Below, one piece after another: positions 967-43,183 of a stretch of 43,183 nt of DNA (positions are counted from its first letter, which is position 1; every line of letters starts with the position of its first letter). Origin of the DNA: Myxococcota bacterium (GTDB lineage: Bacteria > Myxococcota_C > UBA6777); NCBI GenBank assembly GCA_963169055.1, contig CAUJFU010000037.1, forward strand, positions 1 to 43,183, read 5' to 3'. The notes beneath the pieces are model-generated. The model did no database searches. It saw nothing but the letters and a program-made list of their open reading frames with translations, and was not told where the DNA came from. Position numbers and translations under genes: made by a program.

Positions 967-1215
967 TTTTGTGGGGTGCTACCCCACCCCCCGCAAGGGA
1001 ACTGCGTCCCCTTGACCCCGTGTTGGCGAAAAGATCACTGTTTTTCAAACCAACGACGCTCTCGCTTGGACAGGCACGATCGCGGGTTTTTTGGGGCCAA
1101 CCGCGCCATACGAAATCCGACCGTAGCGTGATCGCAACATGGAAGGGCAGCCCCTTGTAGCCCAACCACAGGGCGTCTACAGCGGGTGGATCACACCTAC
1201 CCTTCGATCACACTC
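967..1215 (+). repeat. Composite intergenic repeat, copy 1: tandem hairpins GGGGTGCTACCCC and CAAGGG..CCCTTG followed by a conserved tail and a second module (AAGGGCAGCCCC..ACCCTTCGATCACACT)
   Basis: Aligned by eye with 25341..25560 (same order and similar spacing), 27677..27760 (reverse strand, first module only) and 3991..4092 (second module only). Confidence 0.65.
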
Positions 1216-3772: not shown

Positions 3773-3938
3773 CTGTCCATCCTTTCGATCAAACAGGCGC
3801 TTCCGTTGCGCCTGCAACAAATAACTGTAGTCTATTTCGATGGCTGAAATCTCTTTTGGGATTGGTATCTAGGCGAGAAGATCAACACATCCTGAAACGC
3901 AGCGGAGACACACTAGGCGAGGCTTCACGCAAGATGTT

Positions 3939-3953
3939 GTTCAAAGATTGAAC
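3939..3953. promoter_or_regulatory. Inverted repeat GTTCAA-AGA-TTGAAC upstream of the first protease paralog
   Basis: Perfect 6-bp arms; identical 15-mer at 6910..6924 upstream of the second paralog. Confidence 0.4.
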
Positions 3954-3990
3954 GGCTTTGTGACGAAAATCCTCAATTCGACGCAGTGGT

Positions 3991-4092
3991 GCGAAATCCG
4001 CGCATGGTGTGATCGTAAAGAGGTAGGGGCAACCCCCTGTGGCCCAACAATAGGGCTTCTACAGCGGATTGCGTCTACCCTTCGATCACACT
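3991..4092 (+). repeat. Second module of the intergenic repeat, copy B
   Basis: GCGAAATCCGCGCATGGTGTGATCGTAAAGAGGTAGGGGCAACCCCCTGTGGCCCAACAATAGGG..TCTACCCTTCGATCACACT closely parallels 1109..1215. Confidence 0.65.
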
Positions 4093-4114
4093 GCTCTCGA
4101 ATATCGTGTGACGT

Positions 4115-6739: not shown

Positions 6740-6909
6740 CAAAAATCCTTCTGTCCTGTCTGTCCAAAGAGCAACAACACGCGCAGAAAGGTTGGATGTG
6801 AGCAAGAAAAAAGCGTTGCGAATCGCTCCCCCCGCAACAGACCTTTTCCAACGCCCCAACCAAACGGCGCAAAACAAAACGAACGTAGAACATACCCAAG
6901 AGGCTCGCT

Positions 6910-12491: not shown

Positions 12492-13436
12492 TTAGCCGAG
12501 ATATCGCCGGTAATAGGCGATGGTTTCGGCGAACCCCTCGCGTGGTGAATAGCGCGGGGACCACCCCAAGACTTGGCGGGCTCGGCTGATATCGGGACAA
12601 CGGCGTTTGGGATCGTCTTTGTGTGGCAGCGGCATATAGGTTAACGTGCTTTTGGATTCGGTGAGTTCGATGATGAGTTCAGCGAATTCGCGCACAGTCA
12701 TCTCGTGTGGGTTGCCGATATTGACGGGATCGTTGTAATCGCTCCAGAGCAAACGAACGATCCCTTCGACTTGATCGGCGACGTAGCAAAAAGAGCGTGT
12801 TTGGCTACCGTCGCCAAAGATGGTGATCGGCTCGTTGCGAAGGGCTTGCATAATAAAGTTGGGGACAACACGCCCGTCGTCGGTGCGGTTGCGCGGGCCG
12901 TATGTATTAAAGATCCGCACCACGCGCACAGGGATATCCCATTTTCGGTGATAGGTGTAGGTGATGGCTTCTGCGAAACGCTTGGCTTCGTCGTAGCAAG
13001 CGCGTGTACCGATCGAACTGACGTGTCCGACGTAACTTTCGACTTGCGGGTGGATCTCGGGATCACCATAGACCTCAGAAGTGGAGCTCAGAAAGAATCG
13101 CGCCCCGCTGTGACGAGCGACTTCGAGCATATTTTCCGTTCCGTGAGAGCCAACACGCAGCGTTTCAATCGAATAGCGCACATAATCAACGGGACTGGCA
13201 GGGCTGGCGAGGTGCATCACCGCATCCCATCCACCATCGTACAGGTCGGATAAATCAAGCGATACATCGCGTTCAAGAAATTGAAATCTCGGATGTTCGG
13301 CCAGATGTTGAAGGTTGACACGCCTTCCTGTCAAAAGGTTGTCCAGAACGGTCACTTCGTGGCCGTCTTGCAACAGACGATCCGTCAAGTGCGACCCCAA
13401 AAACCCCGAACCACCAGAGAGTAAGATCTTGCTCAT
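12492..13436 (-). CDS. NAD-dependent SDR, UDP-glucuronate decarboxylase-like
   Basis: [10 protein letters not shown] nucleotide-binding motif, [38 protein letters not shown]. Confidence 0.85.
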
Positions 13437-18408: not shown

Positions 18409-20724
18409 ATGAAGCTCCGTCTCGTTTCCCACGCAAGGCGTGTGGCCTGTTGGCTTGGCTTGGCCTTGTTGTGCGGTGTTCCTCAACACGCCTACGCCCA
18501 AGGCTTTTTGATCCCAACCCAACAAGCGATCGCACCGTTGTCGCTTAAATCGCACCGCGTCATGGTCAAGATCCAAGGTCGTGCCGCCAAAACAGATGTC
18601 ACGCAAGTCTTTGTCAACCACACCAATCAGCTTTTGGAAGCGACCTTTTTGTTCCCACTGCCCAAAGATGCGACCTTTTCCAACTTTGTGCTGTACATCA
18701 ACGGCAAGCCCACCCAAGGAACGGTCTTGGTCAAAGAAAAAGCCCACGCGATCTATTCGTCGATCGTTCGGACAATGCAAGATCCCGGATTGATCGATTA
18801 TTTGGGCGGGAACCTTTTTCGCGCACGTGTATTCCCTATCCCCCGACGCGGCGAGCAAAAGATCCGCATCTCCTTTACACAGATCATCCCGTATGAAGGC
18901 GGTTTGCATCGTTTTGTGTACCCGCTCAAAACCCCTCGTCGCGTTTGGCGCACCGATCAGGATTTTACGATGGCCGTCCAATTGCATAGCAGCGCGCCGA
19001 TCAAAAACATCTATTCCCCAACACACAAAGTCTCCATCCGCCGCAAAACCGATCGTCACGCGATCGTCGGATTCGAAGAAGACAAAGTCGCGCTAGATCG
19101 GGACTTTGTGATGTACTACTCGGTCTCCCCCAAAGATGTCGGGATCGATGTTCTTGTGCATCGAGCGGGCGAACAAGACGGCTATTTCTTGTTGATGGCC
19201 ACCCCCAAAACCACCTTTGCAGCCAAAGAACTCAGCGGCAAAAACATCACCTTTGTTCTCGATACATCGGGTTCGATGCGCGGTGAAAAGATGAAATGGG
19301 CCAAAGTCGCCTTGGTGCGCTGCTTGAAAAAGTTAAATCCCAAAGATCACTTTAACGTTGTGCGCTTTTCCACGGATGTAGAGGGCTTGTTTGGCGAGTT
19401 GCAGATCGCAAGCCAATCCCATATCCAACAAGCCGTCAGCTTTGTGGAAAAAATGGAGGCCGCAGGCGCGACCGCCATTGAAGAAGCGATGGCCAAAGCC
19501 TTGGAACAAAAGCCCCGTGGGGACGGGATCAGTTTGATCGTCTTCATCACAGACGGCCATCCCACCGTCGGCGAAACCTCTCCCGAGATCTTGGTCAAAC
19601 AAGCCAACGAGCGCAACAAGTGGAAGTCACGCATCTTCACCTTCGGGATCGGAACCGACATCAACATCAAATTGCTCGATCAGATCGCGCAAAGCAGCGG
19701 AGCGACGGGCGATTATGTGGAACCCAACAAAGAGATCGCGACACGCATCGATACCTTTTATGACAAAGTGCGCTACCCCGTGTTGAGCGACGTCCAATTA
19801 ACCACCAGCGGTGCTGTGCGTTTGCGCGAGATCTATCCGCTGCGTTTGCCCGATCTCTTCCGTGGTGGGCAGCTTTTGGTGATGGGCCGTTATCGCGGAA
19901 CGGGACACGCCGCAATCAAGCTGACAGGAAAAGTCAACGGTGCAGCCCGTCAATTCGTGTACGAAGCAGCCTTCGCAAAAGAAAGCAAAGAAAACGATTT
20001 CATCTCCCGCCTGTGGGCGCACCGCAAAGTCGCTTATTTGCTTGATGCGATCCGCATGAAAGGTGAACTCCCCGAACTCAAACAAGAAGTCATCCATCTC
20101 GCCAAACAATTCGGGATCGTCACACCCTATACCTCGTATCTCGTTGTCGAAGAAAAAGACCGATGGCGTCTCGGAGAGGACGCACAGCCCCAAGCCACCG
20201 GCACGCCATCTCCCGCCACGCCCTCGATCGCAGCGCCAAGAACCGCTTGGAATCAGCGCGCTCGAAGGGTCTGGGGAAAACGAGGTGCAGCAGATGACGC
20301 AGAACGCGGGCCTAGCGGAGGCGGAAGCGTCCCCGCACGCGAACCATCCGCTGCGCCGATGAAAAGCGAATCGCTCGCCAAGACCGACGGAGACGAAGCC
20401 GTCCGCGTTAGCCGCCAACTGCGAAAGATGAAAGAAAGCAAAGTCGCTCAAAAAGGCGGCAGTGTCCGACTAATCCAAGGTGTTCGTTTCGTGTGGCAAA
20501 GCAACCAATGGGTCGATGCTCGCTACAACAGCGAGATGAAGACACTCAAGCTCAAGTACCTCAGCGATCTGTACTTTCAAGCCTTGGCCCTCCGCCCCGA
20601 TCTGCGCCGTGCGTTCACATTGGGCGCACGCCTTGTCGTTGTCGTCGGTAAAAATCGCGCCCTTGTGATCGGCCCCGAAGAAGACACTTCCACCCCCACA
20701 CTTCGCAGCTTTTTGCGCAAGTGA
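18409..20724 (+). CDS. VIT domain plus vWA domain protein (inter-alpha-trypsin-inhibitor heavy-chain-like)
   Basis: N-term VFVNHTNQLLEATFLFPLPKDATFSNFVLYINGKPTQGTVLVKEKAHAIYSS typical of VIT; vWA MIDAS DTSGSM; RBS AAGGAGG before the ATG. Confidence 0.88.
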   Translation: MKLRLVSHARRVACWLGLALLCGVPQHAYAQGFLIPTQQAIAPLSLKSHRVMVKIQGRAAKTDVTQVFVNHTNQLLEATFLFPLPKDATFSNFVLYINGKPTQGTVLVKEKAHAIYSSIVRTMQDPGLIDYLGGNLFRARVFPIPRRGEQKIRISFTQIIPYEGGLHRFVYPLKTPRRVWRTDQDFTMAVQLHSSAPIKNIYSPTHKVSIRRKTDRHAIVGFEEDKVALDRDFVMYYSVSPKDVGIDVLVHRAGEQDGYFLLMATPKTTFAAKELSGKNITFVLDTSGSMRGEKMKWAKVALVRCLKKLNPKDHFNVVRFSTDVEGLFGELQIASQSHIQQAVSFVEKMEAAGATAIEEAMAKALEQKPRGDGISLIVFITDGHPTVGETSPEILVKQANERNKWKSRIFTFGIGTDINIKLLDQIAQSSGATGDYVEPNKEIATRIDTFYDKVRYPVLSDVQLTTSGAVRLREIYPLRLPDLFRGGQLLVMGRYRGTGHAAIKLTGKVNGAARQFVYEAAFAKESKENDFISRLWAHRKVAYLLDAIRMKGELPELKQEVIHLAKQFGIVTPYTSYLVVEEKDRWRLGEDAQPQATGTPSPATPSIAAPRTAWNQRARRVWGKRGAADDAERGPSGGGSVPAREPSAAPMKSESLAKTDGDEAVRVSRQLRKMKESKVAQKGGSVRLIQGVRFVWQSNQWVDARYNSEMKTLKLKYLSDLYFQALALRPDLRRAFTLGARLVVVVGKNRALVIGPEEDTSTPTLRSFLRK

Positions 20725-27960: not shown

Positions 27961-28953
27961 ATGACAGAAAGCCGAACCACACGCGATATCCAAGAACAGA
28001 TCCGAGAAAAAAGTGAGTTCGTTCAGCGGCTCCGCCAAGCCATCGGCGAAGTGATCGTCGGTCAACAAGACCTTGTCGAACGCTTGCTTGTTGGTCTCCT
28101 TGCCAACGGGCATGTCCTCGTCGAAGGTGTCCCCGGACTCGCCAAAACCACCGTTGTCAAGGCCCTCGCGGATGCTTTGGATGCAAGCTTTCAGCGGCTC
28201 CAATTCACTCCCGATATGCTGCCTTCGGATATCCTTGGAACAGAGATCTACGAACAGCAAAAAGGTACTTTTTCGGTCAAAAAAGGACCGATCTTTGCGA
28301 ATATCATCCTTGCAGACGAGATCAACCGCGCTCCCTCCAAAGTCCAATCCGCCCTGCTCGAAGCCATGCAAGAGCGGCAAGTGACGATCGGGCACGAAAC
28401 CTTTGCTCTCCCCAGCCCTTTCCTTGTGATGGCGACACAAAACCCCATCGAACAAGAAGGCACCTATCCCCTCCCCGAGGCCCAAGTCGACCGCTTTATG
28501 CTCAAGCTCAACGTCACCTACCCCTCCAAAGACGACGAAAAAGCGATCATGCGGCGGATTGCACGCACAACCCCCAAAGCGACCGAATCTGTCGTACGCC
28601 CCGAAGAAATCCTTGCGGCCCGTGAACTGCTCAAAGAGATCCGCCTCGAAGATCGCCTCGAAGATTATATCGTCGATCTGATCGTGGCGACCCGTTCGCC
28701 CCAAGAATACGGACTCAACCTTGGGCGTTATATCCAATACGGCGCTTCGCCGCGTGGAACGATCTTTTTGCACCAAGCCGCCCGAGCGATGGCCTTTTTG
28801 CGCGGTCGTGACTACGTCATCCCCCAAGATGTCAAATCGATCGCCCCCGATATCTTGCGCCACCGCATCTTGCTTTCCTACGAAGCCGAAGCCGAAGACA
28901 TCAAAGCCGACGATATCATCCGCGAACTGCTCGAACAGATCGAGGTTCCCTGA
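27961..28953 (+). CDS. MoxR-family AAA+ ATPase
   Basis: GHVLVEGVPGLAKT Walker A; ILADEINRAPSKVQSALLEAMQE Walker B; MATQNPIEQEGTYPLPEAQVDRFM. Confidence 0.96.
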   Translation: MTESRTTRDIQEQIREKSEFVQRLRQAIGEVIVGQQDLVERLLVGLLANGHVLVEGVPGLAKTTVVKALADALDASFQRLQFTPDMLPSDILGTEIYEQQKGTFSVKKGPIFANIILADEINRAPSKVQSALLEAMQERQVTIGHETFALPSPFLVMATQNPIEQEGTYPLPEAQVDRFMLKLNVTYPSKDDEKAIMRRIARTTPKATESVVRPEEILAARELLKEIRLEDRLEDYIVDLIVATRSPQEYGLNLGRYIQYGASPRGTIFLHQAARAMAFLRGRDYVIPQDVKSIAPDILRHRILLSYEAEAEDIKADDIIRELLEQIEVP

Positions 28954-29837
28954 TGCTTTCCGAAGAACTCAAACAACAAATCAAACAGATCCATATCTAC
29001 ACTTCTTACCTCGTCAACGAGGCGATGGCTGGCGAGTATGCGTCGGCTTTTAAGGGGCGTGGGATGGAATTTGAAGAAGTGCGCGATTATCGCCCGGGCG
29101 ATGATATCCGCACGATCGATTGGAAAGTGACGGCCCGAACGGGCGCTCCCTACGTCAAACAACACCGCGAAGAACGCGAACTCACGATCTTTTTGATGGT
29201 CGATATGTCGGCTTCGGGTCGGTTCGGTTCGGGAAACAAGCTCAAGACCGAAGTGATGGCCGAGTTGGCGGCTGTGATGGCCTATCTTGCGAGCCGAAAC
29301 AACGACCGTGTCGGCATGATGCTGTTCACGACAGAAGTCGAGCGCTTTGTTCCCCCCAAAAAAGGCCGCGCCCATATCTGGCGGTTGATCCAAGAGATCC
29401 TCACCTTCCAACCCAAACACCAAGGGACGGATCTAGGCGGCGCACTCGAATATGCAGGACACCTTCTGCGCAAAAAAACGGTGCTGTTCCTGATATCTGA
29501 CTTTCTCGACACGCGCTACGAACACGCCCTCTCTCTTGCAAGCAAACGCCACGATATCACCGCGTTGCACGTCAGCGATCCTCGCGAGAGCGAACTGCCA
29601 AACGTCGGCCTGCTCGAACTCGAAGACGCAGAAACAGGAGAAGTGATGTTGGTGGATACCGCCGATGCTCGGGTTCGTGCGTATTTTCAGGCCCAAGCCA
29701 ACACACAACGCCAACGCACTCAAGCGATCTTACGACGGCTGGCTGTCGATGAAGTCCCGATCGACACCACACACTCTTTTGTCTTGCCGTTGATGCGGTA
29801 CCTACGACAACGCGAGCGTCGACGTGCGCGCAGCTAA
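28953..29837 (+). CDS. DUF58-domain protein
   Basis: FKGRGMEFEEVRDYRPGDDIRTIDWKVTARTGAPYVKQHREERELTIFLMVDMSASG; 1-bp overlap with the moxR stop. Confidence 0.95.
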   Translation: MLSEELKQQIKQIHIYTSYLVNEAMAGEYASAFKGRGMEFEEVRDYRPGDDIRTIDWKVTARTGAPYVKQHREERELTIFLMVDMSASGRFGSGNKLKTEVMAELAAVMAYLASRNNDRVGMMLFTTEVERFVPPKKGRAHIWRLIQEILTFQPKHQGTDLGGALEYAGHLLRKKTVLFLISDFLDTRYEHALSLASKRHDITALHVSDPRESELPNVGLLELEDAETGEVMLVDTADARVRAYFQAQANTQRQRTQAILRRLAVDEVPIDTTHSFVLPLMRYLRQRERRRARS

Positions 29838-30045: not shown

Positions 30046-31230
30046 ATGTGGATCACCCTGTTTTATTTGCTTTTTGTCTCGCTTTTGGGCGTCTCGTTTG
30101 GCGCGATCTTCGCGTGGTGGGCGGGTGGCCTTTTTGCATCTGTGGCGCTGCTGTTGGCGCTTCCGCTCGAAAGAGCTTTGCGGATATCTTTGCGCATTGG
30201 AAGATTGCCCATCGCTGCGCTGATCCCGATGGTTTGGCTTGGCCTTGTGATCGGAACAGCTCTCTACGAAGCCCAAGACGCCCAAGTGACGGCCCGCCAA
30301 CGCACAGAAGCTCCCTTGCGCGCTCCCCTCGAAGCCTCTGCTTGGGTCGATCGCACTACTCTTCGCGTGGAAAAAGACACCCTGCGTTATACCGTCTTGA
30401 TACGCCATGCCAAGGCACTCAAGCCGCGCCTGCCCAAGATCACCGAACATCCGACCTTTCACGGCCATTTTTTGATGCCCGCCGAGCATCCGCCAAAGAT
30501 CACGCAAAATCCCGAATCTGACGGCACAATCACGCACCGTTGGATCGTTACGCTGATGGCTGTTGCAACAGGACCACTTGATACGCCCCGATTCACCGTC
30601 CATTACAACCACAACGGCAAACCCCACGAAGTGATCATCCCCTCTATCGCCATCGAAGCCACCGAGATCGAAAAGCCCAACATTCTGCTCGCGGGTTTGC
30701 GCCCAGCCAAGCCCCCCACTCTCCCCGAAAAGCCCGACCTCCAAGTCTCTTGGGCATGGTTGGGAGGCACAGGTGGAGGATTGCTTGCGCTGTTGCTTTT
30801 GGGCCTGTGGTTTCGCCAACGCAGTCTGCGCCCCGAACCTCCCCGCCCACCGCATGAATGGTTTGCTCAGGCTTTTCAATCCCTCCAAGCCCAACAACTC
30901 CTCGAACAAGGAAAAGAAAAAGCCTATTACTTCGCATTATCCGAGCTTTTCCGTGGATACCTAGAACGTCGATTCGATTTCCCCGCTCTCGAAAGCACCA
31001 CCGAAGAGATCGTTTTGTGGGGCAAGGCCAACGATGCCCTCTCCCAAGAAACCTACAAAGATATCCGACGCCTTTTGCAATGGATGGATCAGATCAAGTT
31101 TGCAGGCGCCACCGCTTCGCCCGAAGAACGCGAAGAGATGGATCACCGTATGCACAGCGTCATCCGCCGCACTCTCCCAAGCCCCGAAACATCGGCCACT
31201 TCCACCACTCCCTCTCGGGCGGATGCTTAA
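30046..31230 (+). CDS. Bat-operon membrane protein (DUF4381/BatD-like)
   Basis: N-terminal TM segments, beta-rich middle, single TM (LGGTGGGLLALLLLGLWF), cytosolic helical tail AYYFALSELFRGYLERRFDFPALESTTEEI typical of such proteins. Confidence 0.6.
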   Translation: MWITLFYLLFVSLLGVSFGAIFAWWAGGLFASVALLLALPLERALRISLRIGRLPIAALIPMVWLGLVIGTALYEAQDAQVTARQRTEAPLRAPLEASAWVDRTTLRVEKDTLRYTVLIRHAKALKPRLPKITEHPTFHGHFLMPAEHPPKITQNPESDGTITHRWIVTLMAVATGPLDTPRFTVHYNHNGKPHEVIIPSIAIEATEIEKPNILLAGLRPAKPPTLPEKPDLQVSWAWLGGTGGGLLALLLLGLWFRQRSLRPEPPRPPHEWFAQAFQSLQAQQLLEQGKEKAYYFALSELFRGYLERRFDFPALESTTEEIVLWGKANDALSQETYKDIRRLLQWMDQIKFAGATASPEEREEMDHRMHSVIRRTLPSPETSATSTTPSRADA

Positions 31231-31248
31231 CGCGGAGATTTTGTTTTG

Positions 31249-32508
31249 ATGAACGGCTTTCGATTTGCTTACCCTTGGATCTTTGCACTTCTCCCGATCT
31301 GGCTGATGCTGTTGTGGTGGATACATCGCCAACATCGCAAACGTGTAAGCCTGCGCTTTTCTTCTCTGCACGCCCTCCAAGGCGCTCCCGTCGGGCTACG
31401 CACTCGACTGGCCCGCGTCCTTCCTACAACGTTGCGCGGTATGGCCCTTCTGCTCGGCCTGATCGCTCTAGCGCGGCCCCAAAGCGTAGTGCGCAAACAA
31501 TGGTTTGAATCCACAGGCGTCGATATCGTTCTATCACTCGATACTTCGGGCAGTATGAAGATCATCGACATGGACACGCGTGGCGGTCTTGTCCAAGATC
31601 TCCACCGACAACTTACCAACCAAGGTGTCCTCGACTTTGGCACGGCACGCGCCGACGCGATGGATCGCCTTGATGTGGTCAAAACCGTCGCCCAAGAATT
31701 CATCCGAAAACGCAAAGGTGATCGCCTCTCCCTTGTAATCTTTGGAACCGAAGCACGCACTCTTTGCCCCCTTACGCACGATCTCAGCGCAGCCTCCAGC
31801 CTTTTAACGGATATCCAGATCGGCATCGTTGGCGAGATGACCGACCTCCAAAAAGGCATCGAGTTCGGACTCAAGCGCCTCGTCGGTCTCACGGTCGAAG
31901 ATGTCCTAGACATGGCCAAAACCCGTTCCAAAGACTACATCCTCGAACAGATCCGCACCCGCAAAGCCTCCTTCCTTTTTGATGCCAAAACCGAAGCCCT
32001 GCTCCAACAAGCCAAGATCGACAAAACCATCCTTGAGGCGATGCGCGCCCGCAAACCCCGCTCTCAAATCCTGATCCTGCTCACCGACGGAAAGCACACC
32101 GCCAAAGAAGGCTCGGAAGGCCGCGAAGATGTCCTGCGCGCCGCCCGCGAAGCCGCCCTCTACAAGGTCAAGATCTACACTATCGGCATCGGTAGCAAAC
32201 AAGCCTACACCTTCCTACGCATCAAACGCAGCGGACGTGACAACGTCGTTCGCTTCCCTAGTGACTCCTACGACGAGGACTTGATGCAAGAGATCGCCAA
32301 GATCACAGGCGGACGCTTCTTTGCCGCGCAAGATCGCAACGCACTCCAACAGGTGTACAACGATATCAACAAGCTCGAACCCAACCGCTTTAAGGTTCAT
32401 CAATGGGACGAAACCCAAGAACGCTATCTGTGGTTTCTGTTGCCCTTGCTCGGCCTGCTCGCTCTCGAACTCCTGCTCGGCGCAACGCTGTTGCGACGCA
32501 TCCCTTAA
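31249..32508 (+). CDS. BatA-like vWA membrane protein with an inserted segment in the vWA domain
   Basis: ATG at 31249 (31246 is TTG). MIDAS DIVLSLDTSGSM; LILLTDGKHTAKEG; YTIGIGSK; C-terminal TM; insertion at 31882..32061. Confidence 0.9.
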   Translation: MNGFRFAYPWIFALLPIWLMLLWWIHRQHRKRVSLRFSSLHALQGAPVGLRTRLARVLPTTLRGMALLLGLIALARPQSVVRKQWFESTGVDIVLSLDTSGSMKIIDMDTRGGLVQDLHRQLTNQGVLDFGTARADAMDRLDVVKTVAQEFIRKRKGDRLSLVIFGTEARTLCPLTHDLSAASSLLTDIQIGIVGEMTDLQKGIEFGLKRLVGLTVEDVLDMAKTRSKDYILEQIRTRKASFLFDAKTEALLQQAKIDKTILEAMRARKPRSQILILLTDGKHTAKEGSEGREDVLRAAREAALYKVKIYTIGIGSKQAYTFLRIKRSGRDNVVRFPSDSYDEDLMQEIAKITGGRFFAAQDRNALQQVYNDINKLEPNRFKVHQWDETQERYLWFLLPLLGLLALELLLGATLLRRIP

Positions 32509-32526: not shown

Positions 32527-33708
32527 ATGACGCAACACAAACTTCACCCTACCCCGACAAAAGACCCGATTTCTCCCGTCCTTCCGCCCTCCGCAACATG
32601 GGTGATGATCGGTGTTTTGTTTGCTTTGCTTTGTCCGCTCAGTTTGCTGCTTGACTTCCATACGCAGGTCGCCCGTTTTCTGTTGCCAGAGATCCATCTG
32701 GCCCGTGCTTGGGTGCTTGCGCTGCTTTGGTTGCTCCCTGCTGTCGGCCTATTTTTGCAGCAAGCCCGCCGCGCACGTATGCAACGCCTCTCTCAGATGG
32801 CGAGTCCGCACACGCTCCAAAACCTGCTCCGCCATTACAGCCCCGGGCGCATCCGCTTGAAGGGATGGCTGCTTGGGATGGGTGCGGCCTTCTTCCTGAT
32901 CTCGTGGGCAGGCCCACAATGGGGAACCCGCGTCCGACTGATCCAACGCAAAGGGATCGATGTGGTCGTTGCCATCGACGTTTCCGAAAGTATGCTTGCA
33001 CGCGATATCCCCTCAGCCACAGGGCAGCGCAAACAACGCCGCCTCGATCTCGCCCGTCGCAAGGTGCGCTACTTGATGGATGCCCTCGCAGGCGAACGCA
33101 TCGGCATCGTCGCCTTTTCTGGAAAACCCGTCACACTTTGCCCACTCACCAGCGATTACAACACCTGCGCGCTTTGGCTCGACGACTTTGACCCCAGCCT
33201 GATCCCCTACAGCGGAACCGCCCTCGCAAGCAGCCTCCAACACGCCATCCCCATGTTCGCCACCAGCGGCATGAATTCACGCGCCCTCTTCTTGATCACC
33301 GATGGCGACGATCACGAAAAAAATACCCTGCAAGCCGCCAAAGAAGCCAAAAAGCAAGGCATCCGCATCTACGCCCTCGGCATCGGCTCCACCGAAGAAG
33401 TGACGCTCGATCCCCGCGACCTTCCCCCACCTCCCGCAGGTCAAGCACCCGATCCTCGCCCGATCGTCACTCGGCTCAACGAAAAACTCTTGCAACAGAT
33501 CGCCCAAGAAACCACCGGCCTTTATCGACACGCCGAAGCCAGTCAACGCGATATCCGCCAATTGTTTGAACACGCCACCCAAACCCTCGAAGCCCGCACA
33601 CAAAAAAGCCGCCGCCAAGTCTTTCGCGAAGAGCGCTTCCCTCTTTTTCTCGGCTTGGGACTGCTTTTGCTCCTCGTCGATATCAGTCTGCGCGAACGGA
33701 GAAGTTAA
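32527..33708 (+). CDS. BatB-like vWA membrane protein
   Basis: DVVVAIDVSESMLARDI; SGTALASSLQHAI; LITDGDDHEKNTLQAAKEAKKQGIRIYALGIGS. Confidence 0.93.
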   Translation: MTQHKLHPTPTKDPISPVLPPSATWVMIGVLFALLCPLSLLLDFHTQVARFLLPEIHLARAWVLALLWLLPAVGLFLQQARRARMQRLSQMASPHTLQNLLRHYSPGRIRLKGWLLGMGAAFFLISWAGPQWGTRVRLIQRKGIDVVVAIDVSESMLARDIPSATGQRKQRRLDLARRKVRYLMDALAGERIGIVAFSGKPVTLCPLTSDYNTCALWLDDFDPSLIPYSGTALASSLQHAIPMFATSGMNSRALFLITDGDDHEKNTLQAAKEAKKQGIRIYALGIGSTEEVTLDPRDLPPPPAGQAPDPRPIVTRLNEKLLQQIAQETTGLYRHAEASQRDIRQLFEHATQTLEARTQKSRRQVFREERFPLFLGLGLLLLLVDISLRERRS

Positions 33709-33710: not shown

Positions 33711-36700
33711 ATGCCTTCGATCCAACCCCGCCCCATCGCTCTTTTCACGCGCACTCTCCGCCTTTGTGGGTTGCTCTCTGCTGTGTTTTTTCTTTCCGCT
33801 TGTGAGCAGCTTCCTTGGACCCAACAGAACCAACAAAACGAGCGTTTCTTGCGGCATCAAGAAGGGCTTCAATCTTACAAAGAAGCCCGATTTCTCGACG
33901 CACAACGCATCTTCCTCGATCTTCAAAGCAAGCAGCCCGAAAGCCGCTTGTTGATGTTCAACCTTGGCGCGGTGTACTTGCAGATCGCCAAGCAAGAGAA
34001 AAAAGCTGAAGCACGCCAGCCTTTGCTTGAAAAATCCGAAAAAATGCTCAAAGCGGCCCTCGACAAAAGCAGCGCAAGCATCCGCCAAAAAGCGCACTAC
34101 AACCTCGGCCTGCTCTACACAGAAAAGAAACAATACGAAGAAGCCCTCTTCCACTTTTCAAACGCCAACCAACTCGCACGCAAAACCCTCAAAGAACCTG
34201 ACGCAGACGCCGAAAAAAACCAAGAACTCCTGTCGATGTTGCTCCGACAACGCAAACGAGAGCAACAAAAACTCAGCAGCAGCCGCGTCTTTCGCTATGA
34301 AGAAAAAGTCTTTCGATTGCACGCCAAGCAACCCACCGCTGATCCACATCACCACCTTGCACTCCAAGGCGTCTTTGTCCACGAAACCACCCAAACACGC
34401 GTGATCCTCTCGGGCTATCCGACCTCCGAACAACAATGGCAACTGCGCTTTGTTCCCGTCCATTCGGGCAAATGGCGCTACACCATCCAAACCATCCAAC
34501 AAAAACGCCCTGATGGCTCGACGACACGCCTCGACACTTCGCTCCACGACCAAGGTCTCTTCCAAGTCTTGCCTTCTGCTCGACCCGGCCAACTGATCGT
34601 CTCGACCGACAACCCCGCACGTTTCGCGTGGAAAAAGCCTGAAGAAGCCAAAGATCTCACCAAAAAGAAAAAAAACACCCCCTCTCCCAACAACCCCAAG
34701 CCATCGGCCTCTTCAAACACCCCCAAACCACCCAGTCCAAACAAAGAGGCCGCTTCGGGCAAAGAAGCTGACAAAAAACAACCGCAGATCGCCAAAGATG
34801 AGCGCATCCTTGTCTGGCGTGGCCTTGCGGTAGAAAACTTGTTCTCTGCGACACTTCAAGACAAAGATTTCGACGCACACCTGCGACTCTTTGAAGCCCT
34901 TCAACTCAATGGAATCTTACTTTCCATCGATCTCGACAACCTTTTTGTGATCTCCCAAGGACAAGCACGCCCCGAGCAAGCTGCTTGGCAACGTTTGCAA
35001 AAGCGCCTCACCGAGATGCAAAAAAATCCCCTCCACACATGGGCTTTTATCCTGAATCTTCGCACACGCCACGCCCATCCCTCCGCGATCTGGAGTGCGA
35101 TCTTGTCACATACCCACGCTCGCCTCGCCCATACCCACGCCATCTGGTCCTTGCGCGATCTGCCTTCAACCCTCCAAACACAAACCCACGCATGGCTCGT
35201 CGCCCACGATCCCTACGCCCAACCCATCGCATGGCCGCGCTTCCCCAAAGAACTGCTCTCCAAGCTGATCGCTCTCCATGCCACCAAAGCCCCCACCACT
35301 CGGCCTTCCCCACAAACCAACAACACCAAAGACCCCAAACCATCGAACAAGCCACGCCTTCGCGATGTTCTTCACACCTACGAACAAGACGAGATGGCGA
35401 TGATGATGCGCCCCGAGGTGATGACACCTTGGCTTGTCGAACTCCCCATCCACGAAAAACTCGATCCCAAGGCATTTTTGCAAACGTGGTGGCGCCGCTA
35501 TCTTACAGGCATCCACACCACCCTGCGCTTTCCTCGCCCTCTTCGCAAAAACGAGATCGACACCCTCCACACATGGCTCCAAAAAGCCGCCTCCCAAGAA
35601 GAACTTCCCCCTCATCCTGATGCCTCTGCACCGACCTCTCGCCCTGCCGCTCAAACCTCCGCAGCATCCGCTGTTTCCAAAACCACATCTCAAACCTCCG
35701 CAGCATCCGCAACATCCAAACCTACCGCTCAAACCTCCGCATCATCCGCAACATCCAAACCCGTCTCTCAGCCTGTTTTCGCCAAAGACGATCTCTCACG
35801 ACCCTTCCTTCATGCTCACATCTTGCGCATGCGATGGGAACGATTTCTTGCCACCATCGATCTTCACGAATATCTCCGACCCGATCCGATCCCTGCGCGT
35901 GTCCCCGATTATGCGGCTTTGGCAAAACGCCCCCCCCAACAAATCAACGCCCAATCGATCCCTTGGCGCACCGTCCCCATGTACGGTTATGTTGCCACCA
36001 ACGGGCTGACCACGTTGTATATGCCCCCTCCACAGCGCACCGAAAAACCACCCAAGATCCAATGGAAACAATACAAACTCGATCTCGACTTTGTTTGGTA
36101 CAACGCGCAAACAGGAAAATTTTTGGAGACCCAAAAACTTCGTCAAGTGACGGGGCTTGAGATCACCCATCCCAAAGAAGAAGCGCACATCGCCAAAGTG
36201 ATGATCGCCGATCATCCCGCACACACGGCATATACCGTCCATCTTCCGCACAAATCAACGTACCTCGAATCGCCCACCCCGCTGCATCTCCAAGCATGGG
36301 AGATCGCGATCACTCCACCCAAGCGACCGACCTTTCGCGTTCCCTTCTTGCGAACCTCCCACGGTTGGGTGGCGCGTTTTCGCCCTGATCAGCCCGGTTT
36401 ATGGACTTTTCAGATCCACCACCAAAACAAACCACCCAAAGGCGATCTCGGCCTGATCAGCCGCTTGAAAGTGATGCCATCCACCCTTCCTGCTGCGATA
36501 TCCGCACACCCCAAAGCACCGCGTTTTCTTGTCGCAGGAGATGCACCCTTTTTCTTTTACGCTCGCCGTGAAGATGCCCTGCTCACCCGCCCCGAAAGCC
36601 TCGCCGCCTTCAAGCAGCGCATCCAACAGCTCCGTCAAAGCGATCCTGCCCTCACCGTCGTGATCACACGACTTCCTTCGTTTGCTTGGTCGCCTGCCTC

Positions 36701-38024
36701 CACCGCCCGCGATCTTGGCGCGCCTTCGCTCTCTCTCAAACCACGCCATCGGCCGACGTCTGCTCCCTCGTCCCCCATGCTGGCGTCTTCTCCCGAACTC
36801 CTGCGCCAATTCGATCAGATCGAAGCCAAGATCGAGATCTTGCACAAAGCGGGTTTTCACGTCGCCTTGCAGATCGATCGCAGCCGTTGGAGCGCGTGGA
36901 ATCCCCTCGAACGCATCCAACGTGCGCTCTATCTGATCGATCGCTTGCATCCCATCGCGCCGCTGTTATGGATCGCGGATCTTTCTGGCAAAGACGATAC
37001 GCGAAAACATCGATGGTTTCCGCAGATGCTTCAAACGTGGACGATGCTTCGCTTGATCGATCCGCAAGCGCTCCAAACCTACCAAAAAGATCCGAAAAAA
37101 AACCAACCCCCCCAACTCTTGGCTCCGCCGCCTCTTTCTCTAGCCTATCTTGGAAAGCCCCAATCCACCGCTCGTTTAGAAGAAGCAGAAAAATCCTTTG
37201 CGATGCTGTGGCTGGAGACCCAAACCTTGGAACGCGAGATCAAAGACTTCAAACTGCTTGAACGCAAACGCCCGATCGTTCTCTCTTGGGCCGATCTACC
37301 GAAAAAAGCAGACGACCTCTCACCTACCGATCCCAAATCTCCCACCCCACCGAAGATATCTCTGCGATGGGCGGCCTTTCTCTGGCATTCCCATCTGCTC
37401 GGCTTTCACCACACAGGCCCATCAATACCGACCCGATGGCCCTCAAATGCCCCTGCACCCGCCTCTCCAGAACAAGTCCCCCTCGCACAACGCATCCCGT
37501 TGCTTCTACGGGGCTTTTTCCAATCTTTTGATTGGACACAGCTTCAACCCGCGATGCACAGCCTGCGCCTGCGCGAACATCAAGCCTTTGGCGCAGAAAC
37601 CCCTGCACCACGACAAGCCCAACAACCGCATCACGCGGTGGTTTGGGTGCGTGACAGCGTGCGCGGCAAACTCGAATTCGAACGCCTCAAGGATCTCTCC
37701 AAACACCGCTACACTTGGCTCGATCCGATCAGTGGACAGCAGCCCATTCAACCGCAACTCCTCCCGCCCGCTCCAAAACCCGGTCAACCCGAAACCTTTC
37801 AACTTCCCTTTCGCCCGGCTGTCTTGTATCTCTTCCGTCGTCCTCCCCAAAAAGGCGACAAAAAACAACAACCTCAACCCCAACCCAACCCAAAACAAGA
37901 TCGCGTCTCACAACGCCAACAGATCCGCAATCGTCTCAAACGCCTCCAAGAAGATCGTCGCGATCTCTTGCGCAAGATGCTCCAACGACAAAAACCAGCC
38001 TCGCTTTCCGATAAACGCGGTTAA
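33711..38024 (+). CDS. Giant lipoprotein: TPR (BatC-like) N-terminus plus two modules resembling DUF5060 and TIM-barrel glycoside hydrolase
   Basis: LLSAVFFLSACEQ lipobox; TPR-like blocks (MFNLGAVYLQIAKQ, AHYNLGLLYTEKKQYEEALFHF); FVPVHSGKWRYTIQT and FRPDQPGLWTFQIHHQ; C-term RWAAFLWHSHLLGFHHTGP..HRYTWLDPISGQ. Confidence 0.85.
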   Translation: MPSIQPRPIALFTRTLRLCGLLSAVFFLSACEQLPWTQQNQQNERFLRHQEGLQSYKEARFLDAQRIFLDLQSKQPESRLLMFNLGAVYLQIAKQEKKAEARQPLLEKSEKMLKAALDKSSASIRQKAHYNLGLLYTEKKQYEEALFHFSNANQLARKTLKEPDADAEKNQELLSMLLRQRKREQQKLSSSRVFRYEEKVFRLHAKQPTADPHHHLALQGVFVHETTQTRVILSGYPTSEQQWQLRFVPVHSGKWRYTIQTIQQKRPDGSTTRLDTSLHDQGLFQVLPSARPGQLIVSTDNPARFAWKKPEEAKDLTKKKKNTPSPNNPKPSASSNTPKPPSPNKEAASGKEADKKQPQIAKDERILVWRGLAVENLFSATLQDKDFDAHLRLFEALQLNGILLSIDLDNLFVISQGQARPEQAAWQRLQKRLTEMQKNPLHTWAFILNLRTRHAHPSAIWSAILSHTHARLAHTHAIWSLRDLPSTLQTQTHAWLVAHDPYAQPIAWPRFPKELLSKLIALHATKAPTTRPSPQTNNTKDPKPSNKPRLRDVLHTYEQDEMAMMMRPEVMTPWLVELPIHEKLDPKAFLQTWWRRYLTGIHTTLRFPRPLRKNEIDTLHTWLQKAASQEELPPHPDASAPTSRPAAQTSAASAVSKTTSQTSAASATSKPTAQTSASSATSKPVSQPVFAKDDLSRPFLHAHILRMRWERFLATIDLHEYLRPDPIPARVPDYAALAKRPPQQINAQSIPWRTVPMYGYVATNGLTTLYMPPPQRTEKPPKIQWKQYKLDLDFVWYNAQTGKFLETQKLRQVTGLEITHPKEEAHIAKVMIADHPAHTAYTVHLPHKSTYLESPTPLHLQAWEIAITPPKRPTFRVPFLRTSHGWVARFRPDQPGLWTFQIHHQNKPPKGDLGLISRLKVMPSTLPAAISAHPKAPRFLVAGDAPFFFYARREDALLTRPESLAAFKQRIQQLRQSDPALTVVITRLPSFAWSPASTARDLGAPSLSLKPRHRPTSAPSSPMLASSPELLRQFDQIEAKIEILHKAGFHVALQIDRSRWSAWNPLERIQRALYLIDRLHPIAPLLWIADLSGKDDTRKHRWFPQMLQTWTMLRLIDPQALQTYQKDPKKNQPPQLLAPPPLSLAYLGKPQSTARLEEAEKSFAMLWLETQTLEREIKDFKLLERKRPIVLSWADLPKKADDLSPTDPKSPTPPKISLRWAAFLWHSHLLGFHHTGPSIPTRWPSNAPAPASPEQVPLAQRIPLLLRGFFQSFDWTQLQPAMHSLRLREHQAFGAETPAPRQAQQPHHAVVWVRDSVRGKLEFERLKDLSKHRYTWLDPISGQQPIQPQLLPPAPKPGQPETFQLPFRPAVLYLFRRPPQKGDKKQQPQPQPNPKQDRVSQRQQIRNRLKRLQEDRRDLLRKMLQRQKPASLSDKRG
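35649..35765 (+). repeat. Three tandem 39-bp units encoding (A/S)QTSA(A/S)SA(V/T)SK(T/P)(T/V)
   Basis: Units at 35649-35687, 35688-35726, 35727-35765 read directly. Confidence 0.85.
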
Positions 38025-38058: not shown

Positions 38059-41000
38059 ATGTCGCCGCACCAAGCCCCTCTCCAAATCGCCTTCTCTATA
38101 CGTTGCGGCTTGTTTTTGCTCGCTCTCTGGGCCTTGACGCTCTATGCTCCGACTGCCCACGCACAAACCGACCGAATCCTGCTACTCTCACAGAGCCAGC
38201 ATTACCAACAGGGCGAACGCATCGCAGTGTATGCTTTCTTTTTTCGGATGCCTGAACAGTTTTCCTTCTTTCGCGTGTGGGAACGCGCCTTACAAAGCAA
38301 TCAAGACTTTACGCTGCGAAAAACCGAACGCCTCTCGATCGTTCAAGAATATGGACGGGATACCAACGGCTTCCCAAGCGAGTCTTACAACGCCTTGTAC
38401 CGCCTTGAACTTGAACCCAAGCGCCTCCAAGGAACCCTTCAATACGGCCCTTTACGCCTCCAATCCCTCGTCAGCAATTCTCTGCGCTTCGCTCCCCAAA
38501 GCGCCACGCCGCGCTCTTCGATCCAAAGCGAGGTCAGCGTCCTCACCCCCACCCGCCAACAAGGAACTCCTCTTCAGATCCGCTATCGCTTCCGCTGTCC
38601 CCTTGCGTTGTGCAACTACGATCAACTCGACCAAAACGACCTGATCCAACATCTTCGCCAAAAAGCCCAACTGTCCGACCTCCAAGGCTTGTGGCCCGCC
38701 CAAACCAACGTCACCCCCGAAGTCCTCACAAGCACCTCGCACCTCACCATCCAATACACCTTCACTTTTTACCCCACCCGCAGCGGCTCCCTCCCAACCC
38801 CACGCCTGCGCGTCCCGATCCCCACCCTCCAAGCCCTTGACTTTCGGCCCATTCAACACCGCATCACCCAATGGCTCCAATCCACACACAACATCCCCGC
38901 CGCAAACGCCCAACGCTACATCCAGATCGAGCGCAACAACCCCAACCGCATCCAACTCCAAACCGAGATCACCCCACCTCTCTCCTTGGAGATCGCCCCC
39001 GTCCTCGGTTGCCCCGGCCAATGGAAGCTCCACAGCCGCCTCGTCACCCCCGAAAAAAGCAACGCCGTCTATTGGGAGATCTCCCTCCGAGGCGACGGCT
39101 TCCTTCTGCTGGCGCTTCCTGCGCTGCGCCGTACCCTTCAAGACCTCCTCGCCCAACACAAACTCTCCCAAACCCTCGAACTCGCCCATGCGATCTGGCG
39201 CGCCCCCCAACAAGATCTTCACCAACAAATCGAGATCGCTTACTACTTTGCCCTACCCTCCCAACGCCCCGCACTACCCGCGATATCCATGTCTTTCCTC
39301 AACGCCCAAAACCAACCCTACACCCAACAAACCCCTGCCATCGAACGCAACGCTCGCGTTGTACCGCTCAATGAAACCTTTGCCCCCGCCCCCAACGATC
39401 GACGCATCTATCTTTATTACGATCGCGCCCCAACCACCGAACAATCCGAACAAACCGAGCTCTGGGCCTACCAACTCCCCGAAGGCTTCCCTCTCCCCAC
39501 ACTTCTTTCGCAACGTTGGTCACTCAAACAGCCCCCACAGATCAAACACGAAAGAAAAGTGCGCAACATCACGCGCCGCCATCAAACACGCGGAATGTTC
39601 GGCATGATGACACAAGTCGTCACCCAAGGCGTCCCCCTCGATGTCCACACCGCACAAACCGAAGCCATGCTGCGCTCTCATCCGCTCGCACGCGTCTTTC
39701 CCACCGTCTATTGGGGTTCTCAGCGCCTTTCCATCCAAGAAGAAACAGGCAGCGGCCTTACGCTTTCCGCCCAAACTTCCCAAAAACGCTACTTTGTCGG
39801 CGAAGATATCGAATACAAGGCCGAGTTGCGATGTCCTCCCAACGAATGCACCCCCAAAACGCCCGGCTTTTACAAACAAATCTTTCAAAAACATCTCAAA
39901 CTCCCAAGCTTTGACCGTTTCAGCGGTTGGCAAAAGCTGGACGATTTTACGCGCCGCGATCTACCCGATGGACGAACGAGCTTCACCTACCGCATCCGCT
40001 TCAAAACCAACCAAAGCGGCCCGCTCTCTCTACCATCCACCTCCCTACGCCTCCCCGAACAAGTCTTACAATCCCTTCAAGCCGAACACCAAGTCTGTTT
40101 CTTTCGTGGAGGACGCGCCGAAGAACGCCTTGCAAGCGCGATCATGCGCGACCACATGAACCTCAAAGGCGAACAAGAATGTGCCACAGGCACCCAAGAG
40201 ATCGAAACTACACCCATCCAGATCTCGATCGAAACACTCCCCGCTGAAGCCCGCGATATCAAACTGGTCGGGATCTTCCGCCTCCAAGCTACCCTCTCTC
40301 AACTCAACTTCCCCACCAAACAAGCCACCGTCGCCGACAAACCCTTTTATCTTTTGATCGATATCTCTGGCGACGGCGACCTCAAAACTGCCCAGCAGAT
40401 CATCCAAGATCAACTGGCTCAGATCACCCGTGACTTGCGAAAAAAAGACGTCACCGCTTACACCGAGATCCCTCCAGACGAGCAAAAGCCCGATCGCTTG
40501 CGCGTCCAACTCCAACTGATCGCCGAACAACCCACCACCCTCACTCTGCCCTCTCTCTCCCTTCGCTACTACCACCGCGAAGAAGGCGTGCTCACCGCCC
40601 AAACCCTCCCCCTGTCCGTTCGCATCGAACCCCGCGATGGTATCAGCGGCGGCGTGACACCTCGCAAAGCCGAGCCGCCCCCCACCCCCAAAGAAACCAC
40701 CTCATTGCTCCAAGAGACCGATCTACGGCCCAATATCGTCCTCTCTCAACAAGAAGCCCTTGTCGATCAATCCTTTTCTCCTTGGCACGGGATGTATCTT
40801 TCGCTGCTTGCTGCTTGCCCCTTGTTGCTGCTGCTGTTTGCGGGGTGGCAACGCCAACAACGCTTACGCGCAGCCGATCCCACAAAACAGATCCAACAAA
40901 AAGCCCTCCACCGCGCACGCCAAGCCCTCAAACAAGCCCAACAACACGATGCTTGGGAACGCGCCACCCTGCTCGCTCTCCAAACCTACCTCACAGAACG

Positions 41001-41223
41001 CCTCAACCTCCGCCAAAAACACCCCACCAGCGACGAGATCAAGCAGTTCCTCGCCCGCCAATGGCCCGAATACACCCGCCACGATTGCGCCAAGCATCTC
41101 CTGTCCCACCTCCAAGCGCTCGAAGATGCCCTCTACGGCGGAAGCCAACCCACCGACGCCAAAACGCTGCTGCCTTCCGTCGAACAAGCCATCAAGGACT
41201 TTGACCGCCAATGCCCCCGATAA
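38059..41223 (+). CDS. BatD-like protein (signal peptide, repeated beta domains, C-terminal TM and helical tail)
   Basis: MSPHQAPLQIAFSIRCGLFLLALWALTLYAPTAHA signal; AAAGGA upstream; TM MYLSLLAACPLLLLLFAGW. The ORF-track start at 37198 overlaps the preceding gene. Confidence 0.82.
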   Translation: MSPHQAPLQIAFSIRCGLFLLALWALTLYAPTAHAQTDRILLLSQSQHYQQGERIAVYAFFFRMPEQFSFFRVWERALQSNQDFTLRKTERLSIVQEYGRDTNGFPSESYNALYRLELEPKRLQGTLQYGPLRLQSLVSNSLRFAPQSATPRSSIQSEVSVLTPTRQQGTPLQIRYRFRCPLALCNYDQLDQNDLIQHLRQKAQLSDLQGLWPAQTNVTPEVLTSTSHLTIQYTFTFYPTRSGSLPTPRLRVPIPTLQALDFRPIQHRITQWLQSTHNIPAANAQRYIQIERNNPNRIQLQTEITPPLSLEIAPVLGCPGQWKLHSRLVTPEKSNAVYWEISLRGDGFLLLALPALRRTLQDLLAQHKLSQTLELAHAIWRAPQQDLHQQIEIAYYFALPSQRPALPAISMSFLNAQNQPYTQQTPAIERNARVVPLNETFAPAPNDRRIYLYYDRAPTTEQSEQTELWAYQLPEGFPLPTLLSQRWSLKQPPQIKHERKVRNITRRHQTRGMFGMMTQVVTQGVPLDVHTAQTEAMLRSHPLARVFPTVYWGSQRLSIQEETGSGLTLSAQTSQKRYFVGEDIEYKAELRCPPNECTPKTPGFYKQIFQKHLKLPSFDRFSGWQKLDDFTRRDLPDGRTSFTYRIRFKTNQSGPLSLPSTSLRLPEQVLQSLQAEHQVCFFRGGRAEERLASAIMRDHMNLKGEQECATGTQEIETTPIQISIETLPAEARDIKLVGIFRLQATLSQLNFPTKQATVADKPFYLLIDISGDGDLKTAQQIIQDQLAQITRDLRKKDVTAYTEIPPDEQKPDRLRVQLQLIAEQPTTLTLPSLSLRYYHREEGVLTAQTLPLSVRIEPRDGISGGVTPRKAEPPPTPKETTSLLQETDLRPNIVLSQQEALVDQSFSPWHGMYLSLLAACPLLLLLFAGWQRQQRLRAADPTKQIQQKALHRARQALKQAQQHDAWERATLLALQTYLTERLNLRQKHPTSDEIKQFLARQWPEYTRHDCAKHLLSHLQALEDALYGGSQPTDAKTLLPSVEQAIKDFDRQCPR

Positions 41224-41258
41224 TCCGCCCCCACCATCTTTCTCCCAAGAGGTCTCTC

Positions 41259-42074
41259 ATGCGCCACGCCTTTGCTCTCGGCTTGCTCTCGTGCCTTGCT
41301 TTCTTTGTTTGCGCTGCTTTTTCTTCGGAGGCTTCTTCAAAACCCCATCCCACCGAAACTTCCGCATCCGCTGTGTTGATGCAAGCCAACCAACACTATC
41401 ACGCCCAACATTACGCAAAAGCCGTTGAACTTCTCGAAAACTTGCGCACCAAACGCCATCTCAACCACTTTGCGATCCACTACAACCTCGGCAATGCCTA
41501 CTTTCGGCTTCGTCGCTACGGACACGCGCTTGCCTCCTATCGCCGCGCTCAACGCCTCCACCCCAACCACGAAGATCTCTTACACAACCTCCAACTCCTC
41601 TACCAACGCACAGGACAAGCAGATCCCGACAACAATCTCCGCCAACGTGCGCTGTTTTGGTATCGCCTCTTGACGCTGCGCCAGATCTTTTGGCTGGGCT
41701 TGGCTTGCCTCGCCCTCACCTGCTTGCTTTGGGGCGTCTTCTTGCATCGAAACGCCCAAGGACACAAAGGCATGCGCTGGTGGGCGGCATCCTTCACCTT
41801 GATGACCCTGTTGCTCGGTGGAAGTCTGGCCGCCAAGTTTTACAACGAACAGCTCGTCACAACGGGCGTGATCATCACTCCCAAGATCACCGCACGTTCG
41901 GGGTACGGTGAAAACTTCGAGGCTCTGTTCACGCTTCAAGAAGCCGAAGAAGTGACTGTCCGAGAACGCACCGCTGGATGGTTTCGGATCGAAGTCTGGC
42001 AAGAAGACACCAAGCAAAAACGCCGACACCTCCGCTCGGGCTGGCTCCCCGAACAATCTCTCACAACTCTCTAA
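41259..42074 (+). CDS. BatE-like protein: TPR, two TM segments, C-terminal SH3-like domain
   Basis: HYNLGNAYFRLRRYGHALASYRRAQRLHPNHEDL; IFWLGLACLALTCLLWGVFL; TARSGYGENFEALFTLQEAEEVTVRERTAGWFRIE. Confidence 0.85.
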   Translation: MRHAFALGLLSCLAFFVCAAFSSEASSKPHPTETSASAVLMQANQHYHAQHYAKAVELLENLRTKRHLNHFAIHYNLGNAYFRLRRYGHALASYRRAQRLHPNHEDLLHNLQLLYQRTGQADPDNNLRQRALFWYRLLTLRQIFWLGLACLALTCLLWGVFLHRNAQGHKGMRWWAASFTLMTLLLGGSLAAKFYNEQLVTTGVIITPKITARSGYGENFEALFTLQEAEEVTVRERTAGWFRIEVWQEDTKQKRRHLRSGWLPEQSLTTL

Positions 42075-42134: not shown

Positions 42135-43183
42135 ATGCCTACGTTTTTTTTCTTTAGAACAAGTCGGCTCCTACTCGGTTGGTTCGGCCTTTTGGGAGCT
42201 TTCTGCTCACAAGCCGCCCAAGCAGGCCCACCCCATCCGTATTTTTCGCGCTTCCCCAAAGCCGAAAAGGAACTCGAAGCGCTACTCCAACGCGCTCAAA
42301 TCCAACCGCTCGAACCCCAACCTGCGGATCTATCGCTCAAACTCCTTGATGCCCGAGAATCGAGGCTTTACAACGTCGCACGTCATCGCGGCCAAGTGAT
42401 CGTCCTCTCGCGATGGGCCACATGGTGTTCAGCTTGCAAAGCAGAACTTCCTTCCAAACTGGCGATGCACAAACAACTCCAAGACGCACGCCTCGCACTA
42501 ATCGGCGTATCCGAAGAAGATCGCGAAACCGTCCGTGCTTACGAACAAAAAGCGGCAGAACGCTATCCGATCAGCTTGCTTGATTCATCGGGCATCGTGC
42601 AAAAATTTTTCCCAAGCAGCGGACTCCCCACCACGATCTTGATCGATGCGTGGGGATGGGTGGTGGGGATGCGTGTCGGTGGCCTTGCATGGGACTCCAC
42701 AGAAGCCCTCGCCCTCATGCGCTATCTTTTGTCGATGCGCCCCGCACAGCCCTTGCGCGATCAAGCCCCCGCCCCCCAAGCCGACTTCTCCCGCCGGTGG
42801 CGCGTTCGCATCGGTCAAACCTTTACGATCCCCATCACCCTTCGCTGGAACGGAGAAGCCGACAAATACGCCCGTCTGGCCTTCCGCCTCCCAAAAGATC
42901 CAGCCTTCTCCAACGAAGGTCTCGAAACATCGGGCGTCACCTTCAACGACCAAGGCAACCAACGCACCTACACACTCAAGCTCAAACTCTTGCGTACAGG
43001 GCGCTTTGAACTCAAACCCATCTTGCTCAACTACTGGCTCAAAGATTACGACCAACACTTCCAAGCCGACCTCGGCAGCATCACCGTTCAAGCCAGCGCA
43101 CTCGCCCCACTCCATGCTGTCCCACCTTGGACTCTCTGGACCAGTTTGGCTGCTGTTCTCTCCTTCTTGCTCTTCCTTGGCTT
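42135..43183 (+). CDS. TlpA/thioredoxin-like protein with C-terminal BatD-like beta region and TM, 3' truncated by window edge (not in the ORF track)
   Basis: ATG at 42135 (MPTFFFFRTSRLLLGWFGLLGAFCSQAAQAG..); VIVLSRWATWCSACKAELPS; SSGLPTTILIDAWGWVVGM; then FTIPITLRWNGEADKYARLAFRLP..GRFELKPILLNYWLKDYD and a hydrophobic segment at the edge. Confidence 0.78.
   Translation, partial: MPTFFFFRTSRLLLGWFGLLGAFCSQAAQAGPPHPYFSRFPKAEKELEALLQRAQIQPLEPQPADLSLKLLDARESRLYNVARHRGQVIVLSRWATWCSACKAELPSKLAMHKQLQDARLALIGVSEEDRETVRAYEQKAAERYPISLLDSSGIVQKFFPSSGLPTTILIDAWGWVVGMRVGGLAWDSTEALALMRYLLSMRPAQPLRDQAPAPQADFSRRWRVRIGQTFTIPITLRWNGEADKYARLAFRLPKDPAFSNEGLETSGVTFNDQGNQRTYTLKLKLLRTGRFELKPILLNYWLKDYDQHFQADLGSITVQASALAPLHAVPPWTLWTSLAAVLSFLLFLG

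Follow-up and report, generated by a model that had tools for sequence, protein, structure and literature searches.

A BatC-position lipoprotein with two apparently non-catalytic, glycoside hydrolase-type modules in a Bat/MoxR operon of a Myxococcota bacterium

Operons of the Bacteroides-aerotolerance (Bat) type are widely distributed, and to our knowledge it has not been established what they act on. Positions 1–43,183 of the contig CAUJFU010000037.1 of a Myxococcota bacterium (assembly GCA_963169055.1), called the window here, raise this question through one gene. At 33711–38024 on the forward strand, between the genes for BatB and BatD, where BatC usually lies, the window encodes a lipoprotein of 1,437 amino acids. 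What would so large a protein do in the place of BatC? We favour, at a probability of roughly 0.5, a lipid-anchored Bat subunit derived from BatC and bearing a long arm of non-catalytic modules. The proposed layout was as follows, with the evidence for each part.

33711–38024 (+): whole gene, BatC-position lipoprotein, 1,437 amino acids; open frame, homologues in 5/5 genomes
33711–33803 (+): predicted signal peptide and lipobox, residues 1–31 (..LSAC31); Cys31 invariant in five homologues
33843–34280 (+): BatC-related TPR region, residues 45–190; TPR_1 and TPR_BatC_Lepto, with the BatC proteins of G078 and G155 among the best outside matches
34281–34640 (+): module 1 DUF5060 Ig-like domain, residues 191–310; Pfam PF16586, 97.7% against the DUF5060 part of hydrolases
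34641–34775 (+): low-complexity linker, residues 311–355; 4% invariant columns, Ka/Ks 0.35
34776–35618 (+): module 1 putative degenerate TIM-type barrel, residues 356–636; 92.9% against the hydrolase barrel profile, 4N0R, Foldseek matches to GH5 and other barrels
35619–35780 (+): Ala/Ser/Pro-rich linker, residues 637–690; 4% invariant columns
35781–36230 (+): module 1 barrel end and putative C-terminal beta domain, residues 691–840, with a WYNAxTG motif; 30% invariant, Ka/Ks 0.05
36231–36500 (+): module 2 DUF5060 Ig-like domain, residues 841–930; second Pfam stretch, 95.9% against the DUF5060 part of hydrolases
36501–37610 (+): module 2 putative degenerate TIM-type barrel, residues 931–1300, including RPIVLSW1193; 80.5% against the barrel-only profile, Foldseek matches to ManDH5 and 4N0R
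37611–37865 (+): module 2 putative C-terminal beta domain, residues 1301–1385, with a W(L/V)(D/N)P..G motif; 42% invariant, the highest value, Ka/Ks 0.02
37866–38024 (+): basic tail, residues 1386–1437, and stop codon; 15 Lys/Arg against 5 Asp/Glu, terminal KRG

The gene was a single uninterrupted frame with an ATG start, 1,437 codons and no internal stop. Full-length homologues occurred in all five genomes of the phylum that were sampled, all of them draft assemblies in many contigs, and these genomes span three genera. Identity to the window copy ranged from 37 to 92%, with 37–39% across ~1,500 amino acids for the copies in the three genomes of other genera. The preliminary description of this locus had named a split of the frame by a frameshift as what would overturn it; the frame was instead intact and full-length in each of the five. 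The slot between BatB and BatD was the same in all five genomes (the contig of one, L022, starts within the Bat operon). Between the two closest copies, the ratio of non-synonymous to synonymous substitution rates (Ka/Ks) was 0.02–0.17 in the folded regions and the tail, and 0.29–0.35 in the low-complexity linkers; the protein is under purifying selection. Invariant columns among the five homologues made up 30% and 42% of the C-terminal beta regions, 38% and 28% of the Ig-like domains, and 12–24% of the barrels. At the very end, the KRG directly before the stop (38013–38024; same place in L021–L024) was invariant in 5/5 copies, after a basic tail that is itself variable.

The N-terminus bore out the earlier reading of a lipobox followed by a TPR-like start. 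The lipobox follows the pattern L/M-x-A/G-C, as LSAC in the window, and its Cys31 was invariant in 5/5 homologues, so that the protein is probably lipidated and would be periplasmic or placed on the inner side of the outer membrane. Pfam TPR_1 matched with E = 5e-5, and the NCBIfam model of Leptospira BatC, TPR_BatC_Lepto, matched residues 50–188 with E = 3e-6, under the model's own cutoff. Among the five best matches of the TPR part outside the phylum, two were ordinary BatC proteins encoded between BatB and BatD (G078, 281 amino acids, and G155, 226 amino acids), and for the other three (G025, G208 and G238) a Bat operon was not recognised. Because the sub-cutoff match to the BatC model is joined by two BatC matches from the same slot, the TPR part is, by sequence and operon position, BatC-related. 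A search of PDB sequences with the full-length protein returned weak matches to the TPR region only.

The proposal that BatC is fused to tandem modules held for the TPR sequence, the slot and the module profiles, and failed at the C-terminus. Ordinary BatC proteins end in a conserved signature, S+E-AERIL.AL...KDW, which was absent from the tail of the 1,437-residue protein, where the score was no better than for shuffled tails. We also considered that the modules had been inserted between the BatC TPR part and this signature; the tails looked alike by eye, and the idea was rejected on the same shuffled scores. With the signature missing, the label BatC applies only to the TPR part and to the place of the gene in the operon.

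The two segments of beta domain and barrel noticed earlier proved to begin with DUF5060, the GKWRYTI and GLWTFQI strands being the cores of its two copies. Pfam DUF5060 (PF16586) scored 49 bits in the window protein and 49–59 bits over the five homologues (gathering cutoff 27.2), with two stretches recognised in four of them; in each of the five genomes this protein was the sole carrier of the domain. Profiles of the modules (residues 188–840 and 836–1390) matched one another at 94%, and the comparison shows the two as a tandem duplication. Against a profile of DUF5060 hydrolases from other genomes they matched at 97.8% and 97.3%, respectively; when the Ig-like part was left out, the remaining barrels matched the hydrolase barrel profile at 92.9% in module 1 and 80.5% in module 2, over the first half of the barrel only. 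Controls with unrelated Bat profiles and column-shuffled profiles gave ≤ 2%. Additional barrel-end helices of module 1 were located past the Ala/Ser/Pro-rich linker, and residues 691–840 are assigned to a hydrolase C-terminal domain by motif only. Both barrel segments were conserved across the homologues, as were the W(L/Y)(D/N)(P/A)..G motifs at the C-terminus, in line with the YTWLDPISGQ-type signature pointed out before.

In the PDB, the module 1 profile found one entry, 4N0R, a putative glycoside hydrolase (E = 1.8e-4), and the sequence search with module 2 found no hydrolase. Ig-like and TIM-type modules, whose absence would have told against the preliminary description, were thus recovered; the AlphaFold models were used for fold class and not for geometry. 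The low-confidence model of module 1 matched GH5 and other TIM barrels in Foldseek (best E = 1.7e-4), and that of module 2, likewise of low confidence, matched the GH5 mannanase ManDH5 and 4N0R over most of the module (E ~ 1.6e-7, root-mean-square deviation ~ 19, template-modelling score ~ 0.3). Descent of the tandem modules, each with an Ig-like domain, a TIM-type barrel and a C-terminal beta domain, from a DUF5060-type glycoside hydrolase is thus supported by profile and predicted fold.

Did the modules keep the catalytic residues of their presumed ancestor? Enzymes resembling 4N0R have WWSLANE after strand 4. The corresponding site in the window family read WSLRDL, WSAKEL, WSIKDM or WSLHQW in module 1 and WIADLS, WIVDKS, WFVDLR or WLVDKS in module 2. 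Neither module kept the acid/base Glu in any of the five homologues, and the alignments show its loss from both. At strand 7, KPVVIDE of the enzymes corresponds by motif to RPIVLSW in module 2, where Trp1193 was invariant; module 1 had PWxx(E/D)(L/I), with Leu or Ile at the position of the Glu. Loss of the nucleophile Glu is likely but not proved. Both modules therefore appear, on sequence grounds, to be pseudoenzymes; of the earlier suggestion that they are dead, the part concerning the acid/base residue is secure in all copies, and the part concerning the nucleophile stands on the reading of the RPIVLSW motif. As a separate observation, another genome (L052) encodes a DUF5060 protein in an 824-residue frame whose acid/base region reads YNLCWNLLCLPQ in place of W..NE; this is possibly an independent dead DUF5060 hydrolase.

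We propose the following role. The TPR domain occupies BatC's usual place, next to the membrane vWA proteins BatA and BatB and to BatD, and would dock on the Bat complex. To it would have been added the tandem modules, descended from a DUF5060-type hydrolase with loss of catalysis, which over ~1,200 residues may form a long non-catalytic arm. The beta domains of this arm would make the contacts and keep an envelope partner, be it protein or glycan, close to the vWA complex that MoxR drives, with the barrels mainly supplying size and spacing. Elsewhere, the vWA domain of a Borrelia BatA homologue is exposed to the periplasm (PMC5700661), Bat TPR proteins have been proposed as scaffolds of the complex (PMC3557215), and work cited in PMC5700661 describes envelope defects in mutants of a related operon from Rhizobium.

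Several points weigh against this role. Functional equivalence with BatC is not certain, since a lipobox-like motif occurred in none of 30 ordinary BatC proteins and their C-terminal signature is missing here. The second half of the barrel and the C-terminal domains gave no significant profile alignment to hydrolases; because of the former, loss of the nucleophile rests on motif reading. The AlphaFold models, built from a five-sequence alignment, were poor (mean predicted local distance difference test scores of 46 and 51). The invariant acids D1090 and E1296 might also serve a function.

Of the alternatives, the best placed is that the protein is a lectin-like reader of glycans, as in the preliminary description, in which the dead barrels would retain a sugar groove and anchor the Bat complex on envelope polysaccharide. 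Descent from glycoside hydrolases and several invariant Trp residues in the barrels favour this idea, and there is precedent for a TPR domain and a hydrolase domain acting together on a polymer (PMC9384988). However, the barrels were the least conserved of the folded parts, which speaks mildly against conservation of a groove that reads sugars; a scaffold arm is favoured because a retained groove predicts the opposite. Moreover, Pfam scans of the operon genes and of neighbouring reading frames in the window recognised neither a synthase nor an export gene for polysaccharide, apart from a sugar-nucleotide epimerase (12492–13436). We consider the glycan reader possible, though improbable. A bolder proposal, a little less probable again, is that the MoxR–Bat machine has as its direct target a glycan or glycoprotein of the envelope, which the dead hydrolase arm would capture and the vWA/MoxR complex would remodel or assemble; if true, the Bat system would gain a physical substrate.

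The giant lipoprotein might, alternatively, be an envelope protein that MoxR and the Bat proteins fold or assemble. It is plausible for large proteins of several domains to be clients of a chaperone, and MoxR1 reportedly acts on RipA, a cell-wall hydrolase (PMC12067865). Yet the protein fills the BatC slot, its TPR part is BatC-related and the operon showed no BatC gene apart from it, and we rate a client as unlikely, somewhat more so than either glycan proposal. Still active glycoside hydrolases using other residues would be compatible with the invariance of D1090 and E1296, as Asp serves in some hydrolases; with the acid/base Glu absent from all copies, Trp at the strand-7 Glu position of module 2 and only moderate conservation of the barrels, we find such activity very improbable. 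An assembly artefact or a chance joining of unrelated frames, which drafts in many contigs might invite, is refuted by the same full-length frame in five genomes of three genera, the Ka/Ks pattern, the 37–39% cross-genus identity and the common slot, and has next to no chance.

The non-catalytic arm on a BatC-derived subunit can be compared with known systems on both of its sides. The TPR part shares sequence and the BatB–BatD position with BatC of Bat operons, whereas ordinary BatC proteins have ~230–330 residues, no lipobox, the AERIL..AL...KDW end and no hydrolase-type modules. Like the DUF5060 hydrolases, e.g. 4N0R (BVU_0362), the modules have, by profile and fold, a TIM-type barrel behind an Ig-like DUF5060 domain; unlike them, they lack the acid/base Glu, are duplicated, are joined to a TPR part and a lipobox, and lie in a Bat operon. 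Fusions of Bat subunits are known, namely BatB–BatC in Leptospira biflexa (PMC3557215) and the BatD–TPR–SH3 protein BB0170 of Borrelia (PMC5700661), but these join Bat to Bat, and the part added here is foreign to Bat. PgaA and PgaB of the poly-N-acetylglucosamine (PNAG) system, with a TPR in PgaA and a hydrolase domain in PgaB, offer a possible working analogy only, that of a TPR and a hydrolase-type domain in the periplasm (PMC9384988); the outer-membrane porin, deacetylase and synthase were not found here, and the systems are not homologous.

The preliminary description had suggested looking for the same fusion in other Bat operons. It was present in 5/5 genomes of the phylum and absent from the matches listed when the full-protein profile was run against 381 genomes outside it, with the two best candidates per genome scored; those matches were short, nearly all to the TPR part and a few to DUF5060, never to both in one listed match. 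In the literature searched, we found no report of a BatC-type protein fused to tandem hydrolase-derived modules, and met DUF5060 solely in work on Lactobacillus jensenii. What would be new, then, is the combination of a BatC-type TPR part with tandem glycoside hydrolase-derived modules.

The rest of the operon, whose co-transcription is suggested by gene order and spacing, comprised the following genes.

27961–28953 (+): MoxR AAA+ ATPase; Pfam AAA_3, E = 3e-67
28953–29837 (+): DUF58 protein; Pfam DUF58, E = 2e-82
30046–31230 (+): predicted membrane protein without a Pfam or NCBIfam match, conserved in the operon
31246–32508 (+): BatA-type vWA protein; Pfam BatA N-terminal domain and VWA
32527–33708 (+): BatB-type vWA protein; Pfam VWA and position
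38059–41223 (+): BatD, ~1,054 amino acids; Pfam BatD in homologues, in-frame ATG at 38059
41211–42074 (+): BatE-type TPR protein; Pfam TPR, weak SH3_3

The Bat context given before was borne out by Pfam for MoxR, DUF58, the BatA N-terminal domain, VWA and the BatE-type TPR; BatD was recognised in 3/5 homologues (best E = 2e-6) and not in the window copy itself. By these domains and their order, the assignment as a Bat/MoxR operon holds. BatD, with ~1,054 residues where ordinary Bat operons (L070 and L074) have ~600, is enlarged along with BatC. After BatE, a gene that runs off the end of the window (~42150–43183, +) has a signal peptide and a predicted thioredoxin-type fold with WCSAC, then a stretch rich in beta structure and a membrane helix. 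Genes like it come after BatE in L021, L023 and L024, and the L024 homologue matches AhpC-TSA/Redoxin; a redox protein beside the operon would fit the aerotolerance name.

Farther away, a VIT and VWA protein is encoded upstream of the operon (18409–20724, +). Two adjoining genes at 7350–9410 (+), with weak matches to an Eco57I methylase and a Tsp45I restriction enzyme, are likely a restriction-modification pair. Two large genes for trypsin-like proteases of 870 and 920 residues lie at 1208–6877 (−); the second protease contains a Cys-rich, Dickkopf-like stretch. An Rfam scan of the window gave no match.

For the biology of the Bat system, a very large, selected and apparently non-catalytic arm on one subunit points to the envelope. 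The locus also offers a clear example of apparent pseudoenzymes that arose from duplicated glycoside hydrolase modules, and the two expressible modules would provide a concrete bait for the partner or substrate of Bat. The finding suggests that the Bat/MoxR operon of this little-sampled phylum handles a large envelope structure.

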